A stretch of DNA of 64,000 nt from Paraburkholderia sp. SOS3 (GTDB taxonomy: Bacteria; Pseudomonadota; Gammaproteobacteria; Burkholderiales; Burkholderiaceae). This document shows positions 33,696 to 44,395 of this stretch, piece after piece. The position numbers and the translations under genes are program-made. How positions within the stretch are numbered: position 1 is the stretch's first letter; each line of letters starts with the position of its first letter. Under the pieces are notes generated by a model. That model had not been told where the DNA came from. It made no database searches and was given only the letters and a program-made list of their open reading frames with translations. The stretch covers positions 2,294,001-2,358,000 of the forward strand of contig NZ_CP018812.1 of NCBI RefSeq assembly GCF_001922345.1, in the 5' to 3' direction.

Positions 33696-34937
33696 ATGTC
33701 AAACGCTCCGCTCAGTCCTGGGAACAGCATGGCTCAAGTCACGGAAACACCCGCGTTCGATCGCCGCGTATGGCTGTTGGCGCTTGCCTTTTTCGCCATC
33801 GGCACGGATTTCAACGTCGTTTCAGGCATTTTGCCGTCGCTCGCGCAAAGCCTCGACGTCAGCGTGCCCGCTGCGGGCCAGGTCGTCAGCTCTTACGCGC
33901 TGTTCTATGCAGTATGCGCACCGGTGCTCGCGGGGCTAACGGCGCATATCCCGCGCAAACCGCTAGTCGTTATATCGCTGACGGCGTTCGCCGCCGCCAA
34001 CGCGGCGTCCGCGCTGTCTCCAACCTACGCATTCCTGATCGGCACGCGCATCGTCGCGGCTTTCGCCGCCAGCGTGTTCTCGCCGGCCGGTTACGGACTC
34101 GCCGCAACGCTCGCGAGAGCGGATCGAAGGGGCGTCGCGCTGGCCGCGGCCTTGTCGGGCATCACGATCTCGCTCGTCGTGGGTGTGCCGATCGGCGCCT
34201 ACATCGGCAACCGCTTCGGCTGGCCCAGCAGCTTCTGGTTTGTCACCGCGCTCACGCTAATCGGCGCCGCGGGCCTCGCGATGCGTTTGCCGCAAATCGA
34301 TGCGCCGGCCGCAGCGCAAGCGCCCGGTCTCGCTGCCCGCTTTGCGCCCCTGGCCAATCGCGAGGTACTGCTCGGCATGACGCCCTCGCTCGTCTGGTAC
34401 GTGGCAATGTTTTCGCTATATACGTATCTGGGCGCCGCAATGACCGAGCGCGGCATGACAAAGGAAGAACTCAGCGCCATTTATGGTGCGCTCGGCGTGG
34501 GATGCATCGCGGGCAACCATATCGGCGGCAAGCTAAGCGACCGGATCGGATCGCAGCGCGTCGTCGCCGTCGCGCTCGTCATCCAGATTGCGAACCTCGT
34601 GTGGCTTGGTCTTGCCGGGTCGTCGATGGTCGCCAATGCGTGCTCGATTGCGATTTTCGGCATGAACATGTGGTTCCTGTTCCCCGCACAGCAAAGCCGG
34701 CTCCTTTCGATCTCGCCACAGCACGGGCCGCTTGTGCTCGCCTTGAACAACTCGACGATGTACCTCGGCGGCGCCATCGGATCGGCCGCAAGCGCACTGT
34801 TGATTCGACACGGCATTGCGACGTCGAATCTGCCTTGGGTGTCGTGCGTGTTCTTCTTTGCAGCGCTCGTGCTGTTCGCGCTATGTTCGTGGGCACTGAA
34901 GCGCAGCGCCGCATCCGGACAGCAAGGCGTGGCATGA
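33696..34937 (+). CDS. MFS exporter, DHA1 family
   Basis: A 413-residue major facilitator protein with about 12 membrane helices. N-terminal half: RVWLLALAFFAIGTDFNVVSGILPSLAQSLDVSVPAAGQVVSSYALFYAVCAPVLAGLTAHIPRK, where the G-X3-D-X2-VV segment and the loop before helix 3 are typical of AraJ-like drug/sugar efflux proteins. Motif C-like SGITISLVVGVPIGAYIGNRFGW lies in helix 5. ACGGGAG before ATG 33696 supports this start rather than 33639. It could export a small molecule made or encountered by the neighbouring pathway. No adjacent enzyme gene is co-oriented except the first CGNR regulator 234 bp downstream. Confidence 0.9.
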   Translation: MSNAPLSPGNSMAQVTETPAFDRRVWLLALAFFAIGTDFNVVSGILPSLAQSLDVSVPAAGQVVSSYALFYAVCAPVLAGLTAHIPRKPLVVISLTAFAAANAASALSPTYAFLIGTRIVAAFAASVFSPAGYGLAATLARADRRGVALAAALSGITISLVVGVPIGAYIGNRFGWPSSFWFVTALTLIGAAGLAMRLPQIDAPAAAQAPGLAARFAPLANREVLLGMTPSLVWYVAMFSLYTYLGAAMTERGMTKEELSAIYGALGVGCIAGNHIGGKLSDRIGSQRVVAVALVIQIANLVWLGLAGSSMVANACSIAIFGMNMWFLFPAQQSRLLSISPQHGPLVLALNNSTMYLGGAIGSAASALLIRHGIATSNLPWVSCVFFFAALVLFALCSWALKRSAASGQQGVA

Positions 34938-35108: not shown

Positions 35109-35142
35109 GTAACTTGTCATATTTTCATTCAGTAGTTACGCT
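35109..35142 (+). promoter_or_regulatory. CGNR-cluster promoter/operator 1: GTAAC-TTGTCA-N15-GTTAC
   Basis: Inverted repeat GTAAC-N21-GTTAC (35109-35139). It embeds TTGTCA (-35, 35114-35119) and, 17 bp on, TACGCT (-10, 35137-35142). The implied transcript start near 35149 gives a short leader to the CGNR gene at 35172 and argues against the upstream ATG at 35145. Same architecture at 36414 (minus) and 38881. Confidence 0.6.
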
Positions 35143-35171
35143 TCATGGGTGATCTGTCCCGGAGAACCCCT

Positions 35172-35759
35172 ATGCCCGCCCAATTCCTGACGCTATCCGA
35201 CGATATGGTGCTTGATTTTCTCAATACGTCTTCCGCCGAAGATACGCACTTGCACGAATATTTCGCCAGCGACCAGCATGTTATCGATTGGATGCAGGCG
35301 CATCGGCTTATCGGCACGAGAAAGCTGCCGCTATTTGCGGACGGCGCATTGGTCAACGCCGCACATGCGCTTGGAGAAGCGATCAGAAAGGCACTGTTCG
35401 AGCGCAAAGCAGGAGAGAAAGTGCAAGTCGGATCGCTGAACGCATGCCTGGCACAAGGCCGCTATCGGCTCACTCTGGTCAGACAATCGAACGGCCAGCT
35501 ACAACTCATGCACGAATACGAGCATTCGACACCTGAACAGTTTCTTGCGCAAATCGCCAGCGCGGCAGCCGAACTGCTGGCCGCCGGAGACTTCGCCCTA
35601 ATCAGGAAATGCGAGTCCGATACATGCTCGCTATGGTTCTACGATCGAACCAAGGCTCACCGGCGTCGCTGGTGCAGCATGGCGAGGTGCGGCAATCGCC
35701 GCAAGGTGGCCGCGTATCGCGCGCGCCGCAAAGGCCGCGCCGGCGCCGGAATCGCCTGA
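35172..35759 (+). CDS. CGNR zinc-finger regulator 1 (ABATE domain)
   Basis: A 195-residue protein of the CGNR family. The N-terminal ABATE-type domain (LSDDMVLDFLNTSSAEDTHLHEYFASDQHVIDWMQAHRL) is followed by a helical region and the C-terminal zinc finger KCESDTCSLWFYDRTKAHRRRWCSMARCGNR. The four Cys (Cx4C...CxxxxC) and the CGNR signature are intact, and the basic TKxHRRRW segment is expected to contact DNA. CGGAGA precedes ATG 35172 at 8 nt. Its closest relative in the window is the CGNR protein at 43808 (same LWFYDRTKAHRRRWCSM block). It converges with the CGNR gene at 35797. Members are predicted transcription factors; this one may bind its own promoter repeat (inference). Confidence 0.9.
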   Translation: MPAQFLTLSDDMVLDFLNTSSAEDTHLHEYFASDQHVIDWMQAHRLIGTRKLPLFADGALVNAAHALGEAIRKALFERKAGEKVQVGSLNACLAQGRYRLTLVRQSNGQLQLMHEYEHSTPEQFLAQIASAAAELLAAGDFALIRKCESDTCSLWFYDRTKAHRRRWCSMARCGNRRKVAAYRARRKGRAGAGIA

Positions 35760-35796
35760 CGCCTTCATCCTCCGCGGTTTCGAGCTCGCTCATTCA

Positions 35797-36384
35797 TTAT
35801 TCGACGAGGCCGCCACACAGTAATCGCGTGCGAAAACGAGCCGCTTTCTGGCGGTTCCCGCAAATCGTCATGTTGCACCAGCGCCGCCTGTGCGATTTCG
35901 TTCTGTCGTAAAACCATAGCGGACAGTCTGGCGATTCGCACTGACGAATCAGCAGGAAATCTCCGCGAGCGAGCAGTTGCGCTGCCGCGATCGCGACAGG
36001 CACGAGCACCTGCATCGCCGATTGCGCCGGAAACCGGTATAACGCGTTCAAATTGCCTTCGCCATCCTCCGCGAGCTCGATTTGATAGCTGCCGGCGCTC
36101 AACACCCGATTGAGCAGTTCGGCGTCCACGCACTGTCCCAGCTTTTTCTGCAATACCAGTTGACGCACGTCCTCCCTCAACTGCCGCGCCTCTAATGCAA
36201 GATCGCAATAGAGACCGTCACCACGCATCTCGATCATATCGAGCAGCCCCGCTCCTTCGAGCCAGGCAAGCACATCGCTGTCGGATTGAAAAAGATCCAG
36301 CAACTGACCATTCCGCGGTACGACGGTATTCAGGAATTCGAGCACCGCGTCCTGAGCGCGTACTGATGCCAATGGCGAAGCCAT
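35797..36384 (-). CDS. CGNR zinc-finger regulator 2 (ABATE domain)
   Basis: A 195-residue CGNR protein, convergent with regulator 1, leaving 37 bp between stops. N-terminal AQDAVLEFLNTVVPRNGQLLDLFQSDSDVLAWLEGAGLLD is the ABATE-like start. The zinc finger reads QCESPDCPLWFYDRTKSHRRRWCNMTICGNRQKAARFR, with all four Cys kept. GTGGAGG lies 5 nt before ATG 36384; the GTG of that same motif (36396) would be an alternative start. Its promoter on the minus strand carries the shared GTAAC-N21-GTTAC motif. A regulatory role is predicted from the family; targets are unknown. Confidence 0.9.
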   Translation of the reverse strand: MASPLASVRAQDAVLEFLNTVVPRNGQLLDLFQSDSDVLAWLEGAGLLDMIEMRGDGLYCDLALEARQLREDVRQLVLQKKLGQCVDAELLNRVLSAGSYQIELAEDGEGNLNALYRFPAQSAMQVLVPVAIAAAQLLARGDFLLIRQCESPDCPLWFYDRTKSHRRRWCNMTICGNRQKAARFRTRLLCGGLVE

Positions 36385-36410
36385 TGAATCCTCCACAAAA
36401 ATGAACCGTG

Positions 36411-36444
36411 ACTGTAACTTCTAACACCACACTTGACAAGTTAC
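36411..36444 (-). promoter_or_regulatory. CGNR-cluster promoter/operator 2: GTAAC-TTGTCA-N15-GTTAC
   Basis: On the minus strand, GTAAC-N21-GTTAC spans 36444-36414. It has TTGTCA (36439-36434) and, 17 bp later, TACAGT (36416-36411). The implied start of transcription is about 20 nt before the ATG of CGNR regulator 2. Spacing is identical to the sites at 35109 and 38881. Confidence 0.6.
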
Positions 36445-36925
36445 TCTCATAATGAATCACTCCCATGCGCATGATTTCTTTAGCATAGGTCGACGGCTCA
36501 TCTCAACAGGAAGATTCAGGTCTGCTCTTCAGGTATGAGCGCGCGCTCATACCTGCCACTCATACCTCGTCGTGCAATAACGGGAGATAACGGAGCGAGG
36601 CCTTGGAGGAACAGAGATAAGCCCACGAAAACGCTACCGCGGGAAAGCATGCCTCACATGCCGTGTCCTCACCGCTGCATAACGGTGATGCGGACCGACA
36701 GGCGATCTCAAACTCTATTCGACGGCGACACACAAATGACCGATGCTCACAACTGTCCGATTGCGGCGAATCAGAATGGTATTGTCTTTGTTAGTTTTCC
36801 CATTCATTTCATACCTTCGGCTCTCTCGGTACTGGCGTCGAAAGCCAACACGAACGACGAAACATTCGCGATTCGACCGTCGCGACAGCTAAACGTCAAT
36901 CTGGCTGGCTTCGACGCTCCCTCTT
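36445..36925. other. 481-bp spacer, no supported gene
   Basis: A 155-codon rightward frame (36535-37002) exists but shows no family features and runs into the SDR gene antisense. The sequence is more AT-rich near 36770-36830. I see nothing else definite. Confidence 0.5.
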
Positions 36926-37696
36926 TCAAAGGCCCTTCACTTCGCCGCCATCCATCCGCAACGCCGCGCCGATCAGCCATTCACCCGCTGGGGACAACAT
37001 GAACGCCATCAGCTCCGCGATATCGTCGGGCTTGCCATAGCGCGTGATGCCGGCTAGCCCCGGGAATTTGTCGAGCGCCTCTTCCACTGTCATACCGTGA
37101 GAAGCCGCATACTTTTCCATATACGAGCGGCGCCGATCGGTCATCACGGGGCCTGGAAGCACGCTATTTACGCGTATGCCGTCGCCAATGCCGCGATCCG
37201 CAAACGCCTTCGCCATGGCGACGATCGCCGCATTAACGGTCGCAACGGCGGCAAAGCCCGATTTGGGCGCTTCGGCCGAATTGCCGGACGTAAAAATAAC
37301 CGCACCGCGCGTTGCCTTCAGCGCATCCCACGCGTGAATTGCAAGCCTTCTCGCGCCGTGCAGCTTCAGTGCAAATCCGTCGTCCCATTGTTCGTCGGTC
37401 ATTTCGAGCACGTCGATTTGCGGTACAGCACCGGCGATGTTGACCACCGCGTCGATTCGACCGAACCGGTCGAGCGTCTTCGCAACCACGGCTTCGGCGG
37501 CGATCGGCTCGCGCAGATCGATGCAGATATCGAGCGATTCCGCGCCGGCCGCGACGACGTCTCTCGCCGTCGCCTTCAGCAGTTCCGCGTCGCGTGCCGC
37601 GATCGCGACGCCGCCAAAGTCTTGCGCAAGACGAATCGCCGTGGCACGCCCGATACCGCGGCTCGCGCCAGTCACGATGGCAATTTTCTTTTCCAT
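36926..37696 (-). CDS. SDR-family protein with altered catalytic residues
   Basis: A 256-residue short-chain dehydrogenase/reductase fold protein. The cofactor motif TGASRGIG (residues 9-16), the NAG-like VNIAGA (85-90) and the C-terminal LSPAGEWLIGAALRMDGG are classical. Ser137 (FTSGNS) aligns with the catalytic Ser. Where YxxxK is expected the sequence reads VATVNAA, so the Tyr position is Val151 and the Lys position Asn155. The protein may bind NAD(P) without the standard chemistry, or use other residues. TGAGG is 9 nt before ATG 37696. It lies leftward, downstream of the intact LysR gene (37911-38810) and in the same direction, so it may be co-transcribed. Confidence 0.85.
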   Translation of the reverse strand: MEKKIAIVTGASRGIGRATAIRLAQDFGGVAIAARDAELLKATARDVVAAGAESLDICIDLREPIAAEAVVAKTLDRFGRIDAVVNIAGAVPQIDVLEMTDEQWDDGFALKLHGARRLAIHAWDALKATRGAVIFTSGNSAEAPKSGFAAVATVNAAIVAMAKAFADRGIGDGIRVNSVLPGPVMTDRRRSYMEKYAASHGMTVEEALDKFPGLAGITRYGKPDDIAELMAFMLSPAGEWLIGAALRMDGGEVKGL

Positions 37697-37910
37697 TTCT
37701 AATACCTCAGCAAGGTGGATGGCCAGGTTCGCGTCATGCGAACTTCACATTGTTTCGCATGACATATCGTTGCGTGCAGGATCGCCGCGTCTCGACAACG
37801 ACGGGGTACCCGAGCGCTGCTTCGCTGAATGCAGTATTGGCCAATCCTGGCGGACAAGCCATAGAGCGGGCGAGATAGCTGCTATGACCTGGTTCCCATA
37901 AGATCGGGAA

Positions 37911-38810
37911 CTAAGCCTCGCTCATCACTTTCGATGCGCTCTCACGCGCGATTTCGAGCATCAGCGCGGTCATGGCCGACAACGGACGGCCGCGGCGCGT
38001 CACCGCCACGACCCAGCGGCGCATCATCGGCTGCTCGATCTTCACGCTCACGAGCTGATACTCCTGCAACAGTTTCTCCGGAATCAGATCCGGCAGAATG
38101 CATTGGCCATTTGTCATCGACACGAGCTTCAGCATCGCGTCGACGGTTTCGACTTCGGCGGTAACCGTCGCATCGAATTCCTTCGTGTGCAGCATCTTGC
38201 GCAATGCGTAGCCTGCCGGAAACGCAACAAGCGGCACCGACTCGCTGCGCAAGTCGACGCTCGCCTTCGTAGCAAATCGTGAACGCTCATGTACGACCAG
38301 GCACATCGTGTCTTCGAATAAAGGCGTGATCTCGAGCTGGTCGGATGCGACTGCCGAGTCGTATGCGAAACCTATCTCGGCCCTTCCGCTTTCGACCAGT
38401 TCCACGACGCCGGGCGAACTGCGCCCGAGCAACGCGAGGCTCGCGCTCGGCCTTTGCGCCATGAACCTCGCGGCCACTTCCGCCATGAAGTAATAGCTCA
38501 GCGTGTGGATCGTCGCGATGTGAATGCTGCCGTCCGTCACGCCGTGTTCGTTGCGCAATTGCAGCATGGTGTTGTCCACCAGTTGATACGCGGCGCTGAC
38601 CACTTCCAGCAGCTTGCGGCCCGCTTCGGTCAATTCCACCCCACGCCCATGGCGAATGAAAAGCGGTTGCCCGATGAATTCTTCGAGGCTCGCGAGATGA
38701 CGGCTCAATCCCGATTGCGTGAGCGACATCGCCTCCGCTGCGGCGGAAAGCGATTTATGGGCAGCTATTTCTATGAAGAGCCTGGCCTGATAGTCAACGT
38801 TGGATTTCAT
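37911..38810 (-). CDS. LysR-family transcriptional regulator
   Basis: A 299-residue LysR protein of normal length. The HTH is AHKSLSAAAEAMSLTQSGLSRHLASLEEFIGQPLFIRHGRGVELTEAGR, followed by the linker helix and the effector-binding domain (SIHIATIHTLSYYFMAEVAARFMAQRPSASLALLGRS... to NGQCILPDLIPEKLL). It is closely related to the shortened LysR at 44849 (shared AAYxLVD, xxATxHxxS, RHGRGxELT). Its upstream region has the GTAAC-N21-GTTAC element 71 bp before the start. Likely regulates the SDR and/or the hydrolase upstream of it; the effector is unknown. Confidence 0.92.
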   Translation of the reverse strand: MKSNVDYQARLFIEIAAHKSLSAAAEAMSLTQSGLSRHLASLEEFIGQPLFIRHGRGVELTEAGRKLLEVVSAAYQLVDNTMLQLRNEHGVTDGSIHIATIHTLSYYFMAEVAARFMAQRPSASLALLGRSSPGVVELVESGRAEIGFAYDSAVASDQLEITPLFEDTMCLVVHERSRFATKASVDLRSESVPLVAFPAGYALRKMLHTKEFDATVTAEVETVDAMLKLVSMTNGQCILPDLIPEKLLQEYQLVSVKIEQPMMRRWVVAVTRRGRPLSAMTALMLEIARESASKVMSEA

Positions 38811-38880
38811 GGTTGCACGGTGCGTTGCTTTGTCGGTCGGCTCGTTGCCGAATGCGGTAAAAATAGTTGCACGAACACAT

Positions 38881-38911
38881 GTAACTTGTCAAATGCATTA
38901 TTAACAGTTAC
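38881..38911. promoter_or_regulatory. CGNR-cluster operator 3: GTAAC-TTGTCA-N15-GTTAC
   Basis: GTAAC-TTGTCA-N15-GTTAC with exactly the spacing of the sites at 35109 and 36414, 71 bp upstream of the LysR gene. On the plus strand it would drive transcription antisense to the hydrolase at 39009, so here it more likely acts as an operator for the leftward LysR. The complementary strand offers TTGACA. Confidence 0.5.
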
Positions 38912-39008
38912 GCCAACAAAGTGCACGCAGCAAGGCACACACGTGTACCTTGTATCCGTGAAATTGCCGGCCCGCGGCGCGCGAGCCAGGCAATCCGCGG
39001 CGTCGCGA

Positions 39009-39896
39009 TCAGGGCTTCAGATGCTCCGCCAGAAAATCCCGCATCGCCGCAGCGATTTCATCGACATGCGTTTCCAGAGCAAAATGCCCAGTGTCGAGCA
39101 TCCTGACCACCGCGCCCGGATTGTCGCGACGGTACGCTTCGGCGCCGGGCGGGATGAAGAACGGGTCGTTCTTTCCCCAGATGGCGAGCGTCGGCGGCTG
39201 CTTTTCGCGGAAAAACTGCTGGAATACCGGATAGAGTTTCAGGTTTGATCGATAGTCGAGGAACAGGTCGAGCTGGATGTCCTTCTGGCCAGGGCGCTCG
39301 AGCAGCGCCGCGTCGAGCGTGTACGATTCCGGCGGCACCGAATCGGGGCTCGATACGCCGTGCAAATATTGAAAGCGCGTGCCCTCGAAGTTCAGGATCG
39401 CGTCGTGAACGGTCTTGCGGTGAGCCGGTGTCGGCTCCGCCCAGTACTTGCGAATAGGATCCCACGCGTCACCGAGCCCTTCTTCATACGCGTTGCCATT
39501 CTGCGAGATCAATGCGCTCACGCGCTCCGGAAACTTCACGGCGAGCCGGAGGCCGACCGGTGCACCATAGTCGAATACGTAGACTGCATAACGCTTCAAT
39601 CCGAGCTTGTCGACAAACGCGGCCATCGTCTGCGCGAGCGCATCGAAGGAGTATTTGTAGCCACGCGCGTCGGGGACATCGGTGAAACCGAACCCGGGCA
39701 AGTCCGGCGCGATCACCCGGTACGTATCTGCGAGACGTGGCATCAGTCGACGATACATGTGCGACGAAGAAGGAAAACCGTGCAACAGCAAAACGACCGG
39801 TGCCGTTGCAGGGCCGGCTTCCCGATAAAAGACGCCGACGCCGTCGGCCTCGATACGCTTGACGGAAACGGCTGGGACGTTATGACCTTTCGACAT
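39009..39896 (-). CDS. Alpha/beta hydrolase with Asp nucleophile (haloalkane dehalogenase/epoxide hydrolase superfamily)
   Basis: A 295-residue alpha/beta hydrolase. The nucleophile elbow VFDYGAPVG has Asp109 instead of Ser, as in haloalkane dehalogenases and epoxide hydrolases. The oxyanion region is HGFPSSSHMYRRLM. The acid is probably in WGKNDPFF and the base His in LDTGHFALETH. However, haloalkane dehalogenases carry Trp after the nucleophile (DWG) and usually Asn in HGNP, both for halide binding; here these are Tyr and Phe. A true dehalogenase is therefore doubtful. ATGGAG lies 9 nt before ATG 39896, which supports this start. The family block SQNGNAYEEGLGDAWDPIRKYW is distinctive. Leftward, upstream of the LysR gene. 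Confidence 0.85.
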   Translation of the reverse strand: MSKGHNVPAVSVKRIEADGVGVFYREAGPATAPVVLLLHGFPSSSHMYRRLMPRLADTYRVIAPDLPGFGFTDVPDARGYKYSFDALAQTMAAFVDKLGLKRYAVYVFDYGAPVGLRLAVKFPERVSALISQNGNAYEEGLGDAWDPIRKYWAEPTPAHRKTVHDAILNFEGTRFQYLHGVSSPDSVPPESYTLDAALLERPGQKDIQLDLFLDYRSNLKLYPVFQQFFREKQPPTLAIWGKNDPFFIPPGAEAYRRDNPGAVVRMLDTGHFALETHVDEIAAAMRDFLAEHLKP

Positions 39897-39966
39897 TGAA
39901 ATCTCCATGAACCACTGATCAACGGGCTGGCCGCGTGCTGCCGGTGCTTCGCGGCAACCAGTCAAT

Positions 39967-39997
39967 CCAACCTTTTATTCAATTTTTTATTGGTTAC
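39967..39997. promoter_or_regulatory. Degenerate CGNR-cluster motif upstream of the Asp-nucleophile hydrolase
   Basis: CCAAC-N21-GTTAC: one arm intact and the other matching 3 of 5, with the same 31-bp overall length as the three perfect sites. It is 71 bp upstream of the hydrolase start, the same distance as in the LysR gene, within an AT-rich stretch. Confidence 0.3.
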
Positions 39998-40147
39998 ACT
40001 GACTGATTGCTTTCCGGGCGGCCTGACGATCGGTTCCGACTCGTCAGTTATGGTCGGTATCCTATCTAATAAAATGTATTGCAAATCACACGGCGCGCTT
40101 GTTCAATTCGCCCGCTACGGCGCCCTATGGGATTCGGCACGCGCTGC

Positions 40148-40822
40148 CTACCGGATCAGCGTAGCGAGTTCGACGAGCGACCGATGCTCGCTATGCAATC
40201 CCGCGAACTCGTATTCCGGCGGCAACTGTGACCGGTTGATACGTGCAGCCTTGAAGCCGAAAGACGACGCGCCCGCGAGATCCCATGCGTTGCTCGATAC
40301 GAACACCACCTGACTCGGCTTCACGTTCAACGTGTCGCAAGCGTACTGGTAAACACGCGGGTCCGGCTTGTAGACCTTCAGATCATCAACCGACAACGCC
40401 GCGTCGATAAATTCCAGCAATCCACCCGCCTCGAGCGCCGCCTTGATCATCTGGTTTGTGCCATTCGACAGCACCGAAATTTTGACTTGCGAATCTTTCA
40501 AACGAGCGAGCGCTTGCCGGGCCTCCGGATGCGCATCGAGCACGAAATACGCGCTCAACAGCCGCGCTTTCAAGTCCTCGTCGTGATCGAGCCCGAACGT
40601 GCGCAAGGTATAGACGAGCGCTTCCTCCGTCACGGTCCAGAAATCTTCATAGCGATTCATCATCGTGCGCGTCCAGCAATACTCGAGCTGGCGCGATCGC
40701 CACATCGCAGCGAAGGCATCGGCCTTCTCTCCCATTGACGCCGCGTTGCGTTTCACCGCTGCGTTGACGTCCAGCAGCGTTCCGTATGCGTCAAACACAA
40801 AAGCTCGAATTCCGTCCGACAT
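40148..40822 (-). CDS. L-2-haloacid dehalogenase (haloacid dehalogenase type II)
   Basis: A 224-residue HAD enzyme that converts L-2-haloacids to D-2-hydroxyacids by an Asp-ester mechanism. All residues known from L-DEX YL are present at a constant offset of one: Asp11 and Thr15 (DAYGTLLDV), Arg42 (WRSRQLEYCW), Ser119 and Asn120 (LSNG), Lys152 (KVYKPDPRVY), and Ser176, Asn178 and Asp181 (SSNAWDLAGA). TGGAGCG sits 6 nt before ATG 40822; the longer frame to 40903 is not needed. Length fits the family. Together with the two Asp-nucleophile hydrolases nearby it suggests breakdown of halogenated or epoxide compounds, but no alcohol/aldehyde dehydrogenase pair is next to it. Confidence 0.93.
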   Translation of the reverse strand: MSDGIRAFVFDAYGTLLDVNAAVKRNAASMGEKADAFAAMWRSRQLEYCWTRTMMNRYEDFWTVTEEALVYTLRTFGLDHDEDLKARLLSAYFVLDAHPEARQALARLKDSQVKISVLSNGTNQMIKAALEAGGLLEFIDAALSVDDLKVYKPDPRVYQYACDTLNVKPSQVVFVSSNAWDLAGASSFGFKAARINRSQLPPEYEFAGLHSEHRSLVELATLIR

Positions 40823-41245
40823 ATCGCGCTCCAGTTCATAGGTCAAGGTGCAGTCCATATTAACCGGTTGATATGGTTTATCCAAACGCTGACTTGTCTC
40901 CATCTGACGAAAACACTTTTCTATTTCCGACCTGAAAAGAAGCGGACGTGCTTGAATGCGGAACTTCGTCGTAGAACGCTAAGGACTGCATTTGTCCCGC
41001 TAGCAGAGACGGGATCTCCGAGCGCGCCTCGACGCGATTCTGCGCGAGATCCGGGACATCACATAACAGCTATGCACGCGTCGCATCGGCGACGCGAGAA
41101 TTGACCTATGGGATTCGACGGCAGACCGGTTCGACAAGGCCACGGTGGCCATGGGTATGGGCTTCGTGTTCTCGCGGAGCGGGACACGACGATGCGACCC
41201 GACGGGCGGCCGACTCTGAGGATTCGCCTAGCCGTCCCGGACAAA
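40823..41245. other. 423-bp spacer with a perfect hairpin, no supported gene
   Basis: Between the haloacid dehalogenase and CGNR regulator 3, both leftward. It contains an 8-bp perfect hairpin CGCGTCGC-ATCG-GCGACGCG (41077-41096) without a T-run. Frames covering 41101-41390 are antisense to CGNR regulator 3 or lack features. Confidence 0.5.
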
Positions 41246-41830
41246 TCAACGCATATGCGCCGCTCGCGCGTGCTTGCGCTTGAATGCGTGAACCTTTGCG
41301 CGGCTCCCGCAGCGCTGCATCGAACACCAGCGGCGTTGGCCGCTCGGTGATGTGTCGACGAACAGCATTCGGCAATCGGGCTGGTCGCAAGTCTTGACGC
41401 GCAATTTCAATGCCCCGGTGACGAGGTCGATCGCATCTCGCGCAATGATAGAGAGGGCCGTGGCCAACGGGTCGTCGGAAACCACCGATACGGTGCCGGT
41501 GGTACTGTCGAGCTGCGGCATTCCGAGCGGATACTTCGCCGCACGATTGACGATGCTCACGGCCCGCTCCGGCAACCTGCCGTGCATCGCTCCCGTGACC
41601 ATCTGCCAGATCGCTTCGCGCAGCTCGACAAGGCGAGCTTCTTCGCTTCTGGATAGCGCCGGCACGTCGGAGAACAGACCCGCTGCTTTAAGCCATCTGC
41701 CGCTCGCGCCTGCCGACGCCATGATGTCGAGCGGTTTGGAGGCACGCCGCCGGATTGTCGCTGCAAGGTCTAACGAGACCCGTCCGGAATTGAAACGGAA
41801 CTCCGGTTCCATTGCTCTCGCAATCGCCAT
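41246..41830 (-). CDS. CGNR zinc-finger regulator 3
   Basis: A 194-residue CGNR protein, more divergent than the other three. The N-terminal FRFNSGRVSLDLAATIRRRASKPLDIMASAGASGRWLKAAGL is ABATE-like. The zinc finger is TCDQPDCRMLFVDTSPSGQRRWCSMQRCGSRAKVHAFKRKH, with four Cys and the final CGNR as CGSR. The sequence VDTSPSGQRRW is the pattern of the larger CGNR subfamily, whereas the other three here have YDRTKxHRRRW. ATG 41830 or 41812 are possible starts. The promoter region has clustered AACCGG words rather than the exact GTAAC-N21-GTTAC element. Divergent from the TetR gene. Confidence 0.9.
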   Translation of the reverse strand: MAIARAMEPEFRFNSGRVSLDLAATIRRRASKPLDIMASAGASGRWLKAAGLFSDVPALSRSEEARLVELREAIWQMVTGAMHGRLPERAVSIVNRAAKYPLGMPQLDSTTGTVSVVSDDPLATALSIIARDAIDLVTGALKLRVKTCDQPDCRMLFVDTSPSGQRRWCSMQRCGSRAKVHAFKRKHARAAHMR

Positions 41831-41952
41831 ACAAATAACCCTGAAACTCGAGACGAGTGCAACCAGTATATCCGGTTATACCGGTTTCCACCCGGTTCGA
41901 ACCAGGGATGATCCGGGCGCGCCTTGACCCTGCGTTTTGTACTTAATAGTAT

Positions 41953-41969
41953 GTACGCAACAAGCGTAC
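41953..41969. promoter_or_regulatory. Candidate TetR operator
   Basis: Perfect inverted repeat GTACGC-AACAA-GCGTAC, 29 bp upstream of the TetR start, in the divergent region with CGNR regulator 3. Position and symmetry fit autoregulation by the TetR protein (inference). Confidence 0.5.
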
Positions 41970-41997
41970 GTACATCTCGATCAGGAGGCGAAAGGCA

Positions 41998-42600
41998 ATG
42001 GGGCCGCGGGAAGACATCATCGAGGCGGCGAAAGACCTGCTCTGGGAGAAAGGGTACGAAGCGACGAGCCCGCGCGATATTCAACTGAAAAGTCATTCTG
42101 GCCAAGGCAGCTCTTATCATCCCTTCCCGAGCAAGCAGGCGTTAGCGTATGCCGCTATTGTCGAAGTCGTCGATGAGCGCATCGCAGATTTCGAAAAAGC
42201 AATGTCGCATGACGGACGCTTCAGGGACCGCCTGCTTACCTTTCTCGAGCAGAACACGAGGCCGTTGTCGGGTTGCCGCGTAGGCCGGCTCGTTTGGGAT
42301 TGTGCAATTCAGGACGAAACGTTGCGGCTTCCTTTATCACGCTATTTCGAACACCTCGAAACGCGGCTGCGAGCAATTCTCGAAAACGAACAGGCAGCGG
42401 GTTCGATCCGCTTGAGCCTGCCTGCCGCCCACATAGCATTGACCATCGTCACCGTCGTTCAGGGCAGCTTCGCGGTGAGCCGCGCCATGAACCGGTCACG
42501 CGCCGACGATTCGCGCACCGCGCTGGCTGCCTGTCTCGACCTTGCAATCGTGGATTGCGGCGATTCGCACACGGCGTTCGCGGGTTCGTCCAACCACTGA
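41998..42600 (+). CDS. TetR-family transcriptional repressor
   Basis: A 200-residue TetR protein. The N-terminal HTH is REDIIEAAKDLLWEKGYEATSPRDIQLKSHSGQGSSYHPFPSKQALAYAAI, which fits the family helix-turn-helix (normally GxGxxYxxFxSKxxL; here QGSSYHPFPSKQAL). The C-terminal ligand domain RLLTFLEQNTRPLSGCRVGRLVWDCAIQDETLRLPL resembles the TetR_C_16/LmrA-YxaF group. AGGAGG precedes ATG 41998. The hydrolase gene begins 8 bp after its stop, so the two form an operon in which the repressor probably controls the hydrolase. A perfect inverted repeat lies just upstream. Confidence 0.9.
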   Translation: MGPREDIIEAAKDLLWEKGYEATSPRDIQLKSHSGQGSSYHPFPSKQALAYAAIVEVVDERIADFEKAMSHDGRFRDRLLTFLEQNTRPLSGCRVGRLVWDCAIQDETLRLPLSRYFEHLETRLRAILENEQAAGSIRLSLPAAHIALTIVTVVQGSFAVSRAMNRSRADDSRTALAACLDLAIVDCGDSHTAFAGSSNH

Positions 42601-42608
42601 GGCCAGCC

Positions 42609-43445
42609 ATGCAAATGCCGCTCAAAGGCTCGATCAGCGTCGCAAATCAGCGGATCGCCTATACGCGCTCCGCTCAGACGCCTACGGTCGCATTGCTGCA
42701 CGGCATTCCGACAAACCGCCATCTCTGGCGTCACGTCACGCCGGAGCTGTCAGCGAAACAATGCGGCTGGATTGCATTCGACCTCGTCGGATACGGCGAT
42801 TCGTCAAAGCCGGCAACGCTCGACATTGGCGTGCGCGCGCAGGCGCATTTCATTGCGGGCGCCATGCATGCAGCAGGATGGCGGCGCGGCACGGTAGTCG
42901 GCCACGATATCGGCGGCGGAGTGGCACAGTTACTTGCGCTCGATCCGTCGCTAAGGATCAATCGAATGGCATTGATCGATAGCGTGGCCTACGACTCGTT
43001 TCCCGAACCGGGCATTGCGCGCCTTAAAGACCCGGCATGGGATGCGATCCTCGGCGCGGAAGATTTCGACCTGAAGCGCGGCTTTGCCAAGGGCCTGAAG
43101 CAAGGATTAGTAAAAGGCGAACTCGTGACGCCCGAGCTGATAGCCGCGTATGAACGCCCGTTCCAGGGCGTATCTGGGCGGCTCGCCTATTTACGCGCGG
43201 CACGCGCGCTGCGCAGCGAAGACCTCATGGCGCGAATCGCCGACATCGAGGCGCTTGACATTCCGGTCCTGATGATCTGGGGTGCGCACGATCATTTTCA
43301 GCCCGTTGAATATGGCCATCGGCTCGCAAATGCGTTGCAAAACGCGCAGATCGAGATCTTGGAGACAGCCGGGCACTTTCTGCCCGAAGACGAGCCCGCG
43401 CTGCTGGGCAAGCGGTTGGCCGATTTCGTATCGCACGCGCGCTGA
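42609..43445 (+). CDS. Alpha/beta hydrolase with Asp nucleophile (epoxide hydrolase/dehalogenase-like)
   Basis: A 278-residue alpha/beta hydrolase. The nucleophile elbow VVGHDIGGGVA has Asp100, the GHDxGG pattern found in epoxide hydrolases and fluoroacetate/haloacetate dehalogenases. HGIPTNRHLWRHV is the oxyanion loop, IAFDLVGYGDSSKP follows strand beta4, WGAHDHFQP holds the acid and ETAGHFLPEDEP the His. A GAGG overlapping the TetR stop serves ATG 42609. Directly downstream of the TetR gene in an operon. It is only distantly related to the hydrolase at 39009. Dehalogenase versus epoxide hydrolase cannot be decided from motifs. Confidence 0.88.
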   Translation: MQMPLKGSISVANQRIAYTRSAQTPTVALLHGIPTNRHLWRHVTPELSAKQCGWIAFDLVGYGDSSKPATLDIGVRAQAHFIAGAMHAAGWRRGTVVGHDIGGGVAQLLALDPSLRINRMALIDSVAYDSFPEPGIARLKDPAWDAILGAEDFDLKRGFAKGLKQGLVKGELVTPELIAAYERPFQGVSGRLAYLRAARALRSEDLMARIADIEALDIPVLMIWGAHDHFQPVEYGHRLANALQNAQIEILETAGHFLPEDEPALLGKRLADFVSHAR

Positions 43446-43745
43446 GACGCCGCCCGCGGCCTCGCCCTCGCCGTTGCCCCTCGCCGCAAGGCCATTCTCG
43501 AACACGAATGGCGCTCGCGCAGACGGGTCGTCGCGCCAACCATCACCCAATACGTATTCGCACCCGCCGCTGCGGCGTCGACGCTTGAGATCACGCTTGC
43601 ACTGGCATTCACTTACGCCATCAACCGAAAGCTGACTTGCTTGCCAGGTTGGGCGGCAAGCCCGCGAACTCGCAGACTCCTGTATATTACGAATGCGGGT
43701 TACCGGTACTGCAAGCGCCCTACGCCACGTATTTTCGACTGACCG

Positions 43746-43780
43746 ATAACTTGTTCAATTTCCATTTTACCGGTTACAAT
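43746..43780 (+). promoter_or_regulatory. CGNR-cluster promoter/operator 4 (variant)
   Basis: ATAAC-TTGTTC-N16-GTTAC, a variant with one extra base between the arms (N22) and one mismatch in the first arm. -35 TTGTTC (43751-43756) and -10 TACAAT (43775-43780) are 18 bp apart. The implied transcript start is about 20 nt upstream of CGNR regulator 4. A second CGGTTAC follows at 43789-43795. Confidence 0.5.
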
Positions 43781-43807
43781 CGGCTTCCCGGTTACTGGAG
43801 AAGACTG

Positions 43808-44395
43808 ATGGTTGCCCCTTCCCAAGCGTTTCTGCAGCTTGCTGACGACCCTGCGCTCGACTTCGTCAATACGGTCGCGACCAACGAGGGCGAGCTATTC
43901 GATTACCTCGAAACCGATAGCGATGTGATCGCCTGGCTACAGGCGATGCAGTATCTCGACGCGAAGGAGCAGCCCTCGTTCAGAAAGGGAGCGCTGCTCG
44001 CCGCTGCCCGCCACCTGCGAGATGTCATCAAGAAGCTCGTCATACAGAAAAAAGAAGGAAAGCGAGTGGATGTGGCGGCGCTCAACGCGTTTCTGGGCCA
44101 TGCGCGCTATCACGTGAACCTTGTTCGCAAGGCACACGGGCATCTCGATGTCGTTCACGAATACGAGCGCTCGTCGCCGGAGCAACTGCTGGCGCCCGTC
44201 GCGCAAGCGGCTGCGGAACTGCTTGCAACCGGAGACTTCGAGCTGGTCAGGAAATGCGAGGCCGACGATTGCGTGCTGTGGTTTTACGATCGAACCAAGG
44301 CGCATCGGCGCCGCTGGTGCAGCATGGCAATGTGCGGAAATCGCCATAAAGTTGCGAACTTTCGTGCCCGCCAGAAGTACGCCGCGAGCGAATGA
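43808..44395 (+). CDS. CGNR zinc-finger regulator 4 (ABATE domain)
   Basis: A 195-residue CGNR protein, paralogue of regulators 1 and 2. N-terminal QAFLQLADDPALDFVNTVATNEGELFDYLETDSDVIAWLQAMQYLD is the ABATE domain. The zinc finger reads KCEADDCVLWFYDRTKAHRRRWCSMAMCGNRHKVANFRARQ with all four Cys. TGGAGAA lies 9 nt upstream of ATG 43808; the 57-codon extension to 43637 would run through the promoter and is rejected. All three related CGNR proteins here (1, 2, 4) have 195 residues and a promoter of the same design. Regulatory role predicted. Confidence 0.9.
   Translation: MVAPSQAFLQLADDPALDFVNTVATNEGELFDYLETDSDVIAWLQAMQYLDAKEQPSFRKGALLAAARHLRDVIKKLVIQKKEGKRVDVAALNAFLGHARYHVNLVRKAHGHLDVVHEYERSSPEQLLAPVAQAAAELLATGDFELVRKCEADDCVLWFYDRTKAHRRRWCSMAMCGNRHKVANFRARQKYAASE

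Follow-up and report, generated by a model that had tools for sequence, protein, structure and literature searches.

We describe here a candidate operator of ABATE/CGNR proteins in a 64,000-nt stretch of Paraburkholderia sp. SOS3 (contig NZ_CP018812.1), the whole of which is called the window below. Judging from sequence comparison, we consider it probable that the inverted repeat GTAAC-N20/21-GTTAC is the operator of one subfamily of these proteins, the one with the zinc finger H[R/A/K]RRWC, and that it acts in repression.

For the comparison we named 80 loci, the best 80 of 556 from a scan of GTDB genomes with the peptide H[RAK]RRWC[SN]M, which represent that subfamily only. They include Burkholderiales, Pseudomonas, Azotobacter, Enterobacterales, Bradyrhizobium, Afipia, Acidobacteriota and one melainabacterial metagenome-assembled genome (MAG; L263). 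An exact GTAAC-N20/21-GTTAC lies at most 260 bp upstream of the CGNR gene in 75 of the 80 loci and a site with at most one mismatch in 79, compared to 3 for the reversed control at the same tolerance, the exception being the melainabacterial MAG. Together these promoters hold 139 exact sites; single-base shuffles gave a mean of 0.035 loci and a maximum of one, and six intervals placed elsewhere in the loci gave 5/80 (offset +700), 0/80, 0/79, 0/79, 1/76 and 0/75. Among inward-facing arm pairs gaps of 21 (86) and 20 (53) dominate, and the half-site consensus reads GTAACY-NN-T-N-WA. Presence before orthologous CGNR genes, on which an earlier note on the window had made its operator idea depend, is thus found in these loci as well as in the genus and family panels described below.

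Elements and promoters in the window

A search of the window for the 31-bp motif GTAAC-N21-GTTAC with up to one mismatch returned exactly three matches, every one exact, and these are the three elements of equal geometry which the earlier note had pointed out. Shuffles of the window held 0.48 matches on average and reached three in 2 of 100 cases. The candidate operators and the CGNR genes of the window are as follows.

35109-35139, + strand: candidate operator copy 1, exact, before CGNR gene 1
36414-36444, - strand: candidate operator copy 2, exact, before CGNR gene 2
38881-38911, no strand assigned: candidate operator copy 3, exact, in the stretch that separates the alpha/beta hydrolase gene from the LysR gene
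43746-43777, + strand: candidate operator copy 4, ATAAC-N22-GTTAC, 30 bp before CGNR gene 4
39967-39997, - strand: degenerate candidate operator with 2 mismatches, GTAAC-N21-GTTGG, upstream of the alpha/beta hydrolase gene
35172-35759, + strand: CGNR gene 1, ABATE + zf-CGNR (PF07336 61.6 bits, PF11706 64.9 bits)
35797-36396, - strand: CGNR gene 2, ABATE + zf-CGNR (PF07336 59.6 bits, PF11706 65 bits)
41246-41830, - strand: CGNR gene 3, other subfamily, zinc finger without H.RRWC (PF07336 78.6 bits, PF11706 67.7 bits)
43808-44395, + strand: CGNR gene 4, ABATE + zf-CGNR (PF07336 81 bits, PF11706 67 bits)

All four CGNR genes, of which 1, 2 and 4 are intact and of the H.RRWC type, exceed the Pfam cut-offs of both domains, which are 24.4 bits for PF07336 (ABATE, N-terminal) and 24 bits for PF11706 (CGNR treble-clef zinc finger, C-terminal). 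The AlphaFold model of CGNR 4 has 3h0n as its first-ranked fold match (E 1.2e-4, probability 1.00) with a template modelling (TM) score of 0.60/0.63 and a root mean square deviation of 6.1, and 3h0n is also the sole PDB sequence match at E ≤ 0.01 and the sole fold match at E ≤ 0.001.

In copy 1 the -35 box TTGTCA (35114-35119) abuts the left arm and the right arm overlaps the -10 box TACGCT (35137-35142), forming the promoter TTGTCA-N17-TACGCT on the + strand (35114-35142). The promoter at copy 2, TTGTCA-N17-TACAGT, is read on the - strand (36439-36411) with its -35 box at 36439-36434 and its -10 box TACAGT at 36416-36411, and both promoters are as the earlier note had drawn them. Copy 3 has its TTGTCA pointing away from the LysR gene, and the word facing this gene is TTGACA on the minus strand (38892-38887). 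The variant announced for a further CGNR gene does exist as copy 4, with a different extent (43746-43777) and a gap of 22, one off from the gap of 21 in copies 1-3. Upstream of CGNR gene 3 no site with up to one mismatch was found, the best word having two mismatches and a gap of 20 (41859-41888). The promoter of this gene (41820-41910) carries repeated AACCGG/CCGGTT words in place of the GTAAC operator, possibly an operator of its own.

The overlap of arms and promoter proposed for the window recurs in the relatives, as the right arm together with three further bases forms a TACNNT -10 box in 69 of 78 gene-proximal copies. One, two or three copies per promoter are present in 34, 24 and 20 of the 78 loci, and neighbouring copies lie 42 bp apart in the group called clade A below or often 54-57 bp apart. 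Thirty-five copies, mostly from Pseudomonas, read GTAACCTGTCAA with TTGACA on the opposite strand, and therefore one array may serve the divergent gene, too. The repeat shows a near-fixed distance of its arms, overlap with the -35 and -10 boxes and conservation beyond that of its flanks, as an inverted repeat of the operator type does, and its layout is that of a putative repressor competing with RNA polymerase. One might also think of a CGNR protein that binds the repeat and activates, or does both depending on copy and ligand, since upstream copies at 42 or 54-57 bp from the next one are placed like activator sites and TACNNT is an imperfect -10 box. The proximal copy, however, enters the core promoter in the manner typical for repressors, and we regard activation as unlikely.

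Distribution among genomes and CGNR subfamilies

The earlier note had also named frequent occurrence by chance as a danger to its idea, and here the answer depends on what is counted. The bare arms occur 5 times exactly in the 7.5-Mb genome of the strain itself versus 8 times for the reversed control; they are not over-represented, and their number was rejected as proof. With TTGTCA attached to the arms the counts are 4 versus 0, and the degenerate consensus with up to two mismatches is found at 5 places, four of them being exact sites, versus 1. Non-random are the positions of the elements and the attached TTGTCA, rather than the number of bare arms. The five exact sites precede CGNR genes 1 and 2, the LysR gene, a quinone oxidoreductase gene (G000:C2:1233 kb) and a fifth CGNR gene that seems broken (G000:C2:2403 kb). 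The fifth CGNR gene (G000:C2:2403120 onward; L102 6121-7035) is of the clade A type and looks frame-broken, and its promoter retains the exact site as well as, 41 bp further on, another copy with a single mismatch.

Within the genus a zf-CGNR match is present in 37 of 58 genomes, and these contain 108 exact arm pairs compared to 8 in the 21 genomes without CGNR. Clade A is the frequent CGNR type with the zinc finger GHARRWC and a promoter with two copies 42 bp apart; an exact proximal copy, with the consensus GTAACTTGTCAAg-N-TTTTagtGGTTACgaTg, is present in 31/31 genes with upstream DNA examined. When these promoters are aligned on the proximal copy, for which 2.0 bits in the arms follow from the choice of alignment, the distal copy, which played no part in the selection, has 1.98 bits in its arms versus 0.17 bits in the flank further upstream and 0.58 bits in the downstream part. 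This bears on the possibility that the element is nothing but a conserved special type of -35/-10 promoter without any regulator site, as many copies do include TTGTCA and TACNNT. Yet the distal copies of clade A have nearly invariant arms without TTGTCA, TTG directly follows the left arm in just 21 of the 78 proximal copies, and the sites are symmetric with two favoured gaps, all of which makes such a promoter type very improbable as an explanation.

In the family the full element GTAACTTGTCA-N15-GTTAC has 42 sites in 36 of 249 genomes, compared to 0 for the reversed control, and every one of the 36 genomes has a CGNR gene. Of these sites 36 lie at most 800 bp upstream of a CGNR zinc finger on the same strand, a count that can only be lowered by the omission of weaker matches of one other subfamily from the CGNR positions compared, and before a 37th the start of a CGNR gene follows at the contig end, giving 37/42 directly before CGNR. 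The full element is thus not common at random, unlike the bare arms. The five others are those before the LysR and quinone oxidoreductase genes of the own genome, before a gene of the major facilitator superfamily (MFS) in L217, before a row of hydrolase, quinone oxidoreductase and short-chain dehydrogenase/reductase (SDR) genes in L212, and one in L213.

The site also follows the type of zinc finger. In the genus and family panels 82 of 85 H[RAKS]RRWC genes have a site with up to one mismatch and a gap of 19-23, 75 of them exact, while the reversed control gave 1 for these genes and 2 for the other subfamilies. This table comprises 110 genes, namely those 112 of the listed genes for which upstream DNA was available minus L122 and L199, which have no R-W-C triplet; the fragment L103 was excluded. 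At the level of the order an alignment search detected CGNR relatives in 12 of 250 genomes with 14 matches, 11 of which were scanned for sites, the three of the own genome being left out. Outside the family a site was present in 5/6 H.RRWC genes versus 0/3 other CGNR genes, where L303 has site sequences identical to those of L295 from the 80-locus set and is not independent of it. At the class level the gap-20 variant GTAACCTGTCAA was found in 0 of 274 genomes (own included), which indicates only that this word is not common by chance. Two other CGNR subfamilies within the family have conserved inverted repeats of their own. Most of L178-L186 carry TAACCACCATGCCGGTTA ... AACCGGCATGGTGGTTAG, and L187, L188, L191, L207 and L208 carry TAACCTGTT-N-AACAGGTTA or a near form together with a second GGTTAC copy.

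The repeat could instead be bound by a LysR- or TetR-type regulator encoded nearby that controls the CGNR genes, as the window cluster contains a TetR as well as a LysR gene and one exact site precedes the latter. The two LysR-like clusters, labelled by eye from their N-termini and not by Pfam, are however found in only 18 and 5 of the 80 loci and on varying sides, so a LysR gene is not its regular neighbour. Moreover, CGNR is present in all 36 full-element genomes and the site tracks one CGNR subfamily far more than others, and binding by a neighbouring regulator appears quite improbable to us. From the co-occurrence, from the way in which the site matches the type of zinc finger and from the presence of CGNR in every full-element genome we infer that CGNR itself is the binder.

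Candidate targets and neighbouring genes

The other genes of the window that matter for the proposed regulon are the following.

37911-38810, - strand: gene of a LysR-type regulator, on which copy 3 may act
36926-37696, - strand: SDR gene, with a homologue in the operon behind the operators of relatives
39009-39899, - strand: alpha/beta hydrolase gene, with homologues (one blastp cluster) in 69/80 CGNR loci
40148-40822, - strand: haloacid dehalogenase (HAD) type II gene, TIGR01428 above cut-off, homologous to the gene that follows CGNR in L080 and L087

The hydrolase gene stands divergently next to CGNR in 54 loci, elsewhere in 15 and outside the examined DNA in 11, and in 54/54 of the divergent cases an exact site lies between the two genes. 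Where the window has the degenerate GTAAC-N21-GTTGG, exact copies precede its orthologues in both L118 and L119. The alpha/beta hydrolase is likely a better-conserved non-CGNR target than LysR; its link to the motif and the degenerate copy had been missed in the earlier note. The hydrolase of the window resembles haloalkane dehalogenases and scores below every NCBIfam cut-off. For hydrolase homologues in genomes without CGNR, two of which were looked at (L331 and L334), no site with up to one mismatch was found.

In L080 and L087, the two clade A loci that were annotated, HAD-CGNR is followed by the sites and then by hydrolase, quinone oxidoreductase and SDR. The hydrolase, SDR and HAD genes are scattered in the window, and the own quinone oxidoreductase gene, whose homologue belongs to the CGNR module in both L080 and L087, is more than 1 Mb off with its exact site; a quinone oxidoreductase homologue on another contig of G055 (L100) has an exact site, too. 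The SDR and HAD promoters of the window have no site of their own, the best candidates having three mismatches each. Alpha/beta hydrolase, quinone oxidoreductase, SDR, haloacid dehalogenase, LysR and MFS genes are likely further targets. From the gene names, a role in the handling of halogenated or electrophilic compounds is a guess. Of the two target classes in the earlier note CGNR has held up well, and LysR, preceded by an exact site in L119, is a less sure candidate.

A recent duplication or transfer of a single promoter cassette, with no selection on the arms, might account for the likeness of the sites, given the adjacent paralogues in the window and the CGNR-hydrolase cassettes in distant bacteria. 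The spacers and flanks of the arms have diverged, though, while the arms of distal copies are nearly unchanged, and the placement of the hydrolase varies as described, which renders this explanation extremely improbable.

Several further neighbours were observed. In L229, L236 and other Pseudomonas loci nitronate monooxygenase and genes for ABC-transporter parts lie upstream of the far end of the divergent hydrolase gene (clusters in 18-19 of the 80 loci; Pfam on single members). An Ada-type gene (L282 4631-5713; Pfam on L282 only) is located downstream of CGNR in opposite orientation, and the blastp cluster to which it belongs is present in 20/80 loci. The MFS gene at 33696-34937, upstream of CGNR 1, looks like a Cmx/CmrA-type exporter, its 222.8 bits falling short of the NCBIfam cut-off of 400 bits.

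Proposed mechanism and comparison with known systems

In the mechanism that we infer from the observed sequence, position, conservation, co-occurrence and promoter overlap, a CGNR dimer (or two dimers) would bind the two arms, between which lie 2.4-2.5 helical turns. In promoters of CGNR genes the -10 box includes the right arm of the proximal copy, and in some of them the -35 box abuts the left arm, so that bound CGNR would exclude RNA polymerase. This would result in negative autoregulation, and in genomes with several CGNR genes also in cross-regulation. The same sites would further govern a set of genes for alpha/beta hydrolase, quinone oxidoreductase, SDR and haloacid dehalogenase, joined in some cases by LysR or MFS genes, and a small molecule, probably held by the ABATE domain, would relieve the repression.

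Some observations weigh against this mechanism. The upstream copies can lie clear of the core promoter, which may leave room for activation, and the promoters may partly have moved with the CGNR-hydrolase cassette, because many loci keep CGNR beside the hydrolase. A zf-CGNR match is present in 93 of the 249 family genomes, 57 of which are without the full TTGTCA element; they have other subfamilies, other gaps or no site that was found, and subfamily differences are in part the reason. Of the 25 CGNR genes that belong to other subfamilies, 5 have a site with up to one mismatch, that of L207 being exact, and none was found for L263, L170, L197, L214 and L302, whose zinc finger is of the right type. 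As the genes are mutually related, the Fisher p of 1.8e-14 for subfamily versus site exaggerates the strength of the association. The exact full element in L213 (6812-6842; G074:C10:706811) has within 700 bp no gene start that would make an evident target, no site was found before the LysR gene of L118, one of two near relatives examined, and the zinc-finger part of the CGNR 4 model is of low confidence (predicted local distance difference test about 51-64).

A wider idea is put forward only tentatively. Because two other subfamilies carry conserved inverted repeats of the TAACC type, which we take as hints, the CGNR superfamily might share the half-site core TAACC/GGTTA, with subfamilies differing in how far the arms extend, in the gap (19-22 bp) and in the spacing of the copies, and the zinc-finger sequence would thus encode the operator architecture. 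The GTAAC-N20/21-GTTAC subfamily might then govern, in several bacterial phyla, a widespread response by hydrolase, quinone oxidoreductase and dehalogenase to compounds that are halogenated or electrophilic. As the site is exact in 75/80 loci, it offers a 31-bp probe, predicted targets and a route to the ligand, and such CGNR regulons could then be called from sequence.

In Bordetella pertussis the CGNR gene bp3097 is raised in presumed cysteine starvation according to Table 1 of PMC9976334. Its number is near those of modABC (bp3093-3095), a possible sulfur link for some CGNR regulators. ABATE/CGNR proteins have been possible transcription regulators since the structure paper of 2009 (PMC2954205), which proposes Jann_2411 (3h0n) as a dimeric, ligand-sensing DNA-binding regulator and names TetR and LacI for comparison. 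The window proteins are like Jann_2411 in both Pfam domains and in the predicted fold. The passages of that paper covered here name no DNA site, whereas a site, its geometry and a target set are proposed here. No CGNR operator was found in the literature searched, a provisional result as coverage was partial with subscription journals mostly outside it.

The CifR-cif system, a TetR-type repressor beside an epoxide hydrolase gene with an epoxide as ligand, would work in a similar way, having a repressor next to an alpha/beta hydrolase gene and operators in the shared promoter region. It differs in protein family and operator; the regulators behind the window sites belong to ABATE/CGNR and not to TetR_N. 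TetR and LacI themselves use inverted-repeat operators over the core promoter and control their own or adjacent genes. In contrast to both, CGNR has a treble-clef zinc finger instead of a helix-turn-helix, and the arms of its sites are 25-26 bp apart, with copies repeated at 42 or about 55 bp. The kind of system proposed, an autoregulated repressor with its operator, is known, and what is new is the protein family, the arm geometry and the spread.

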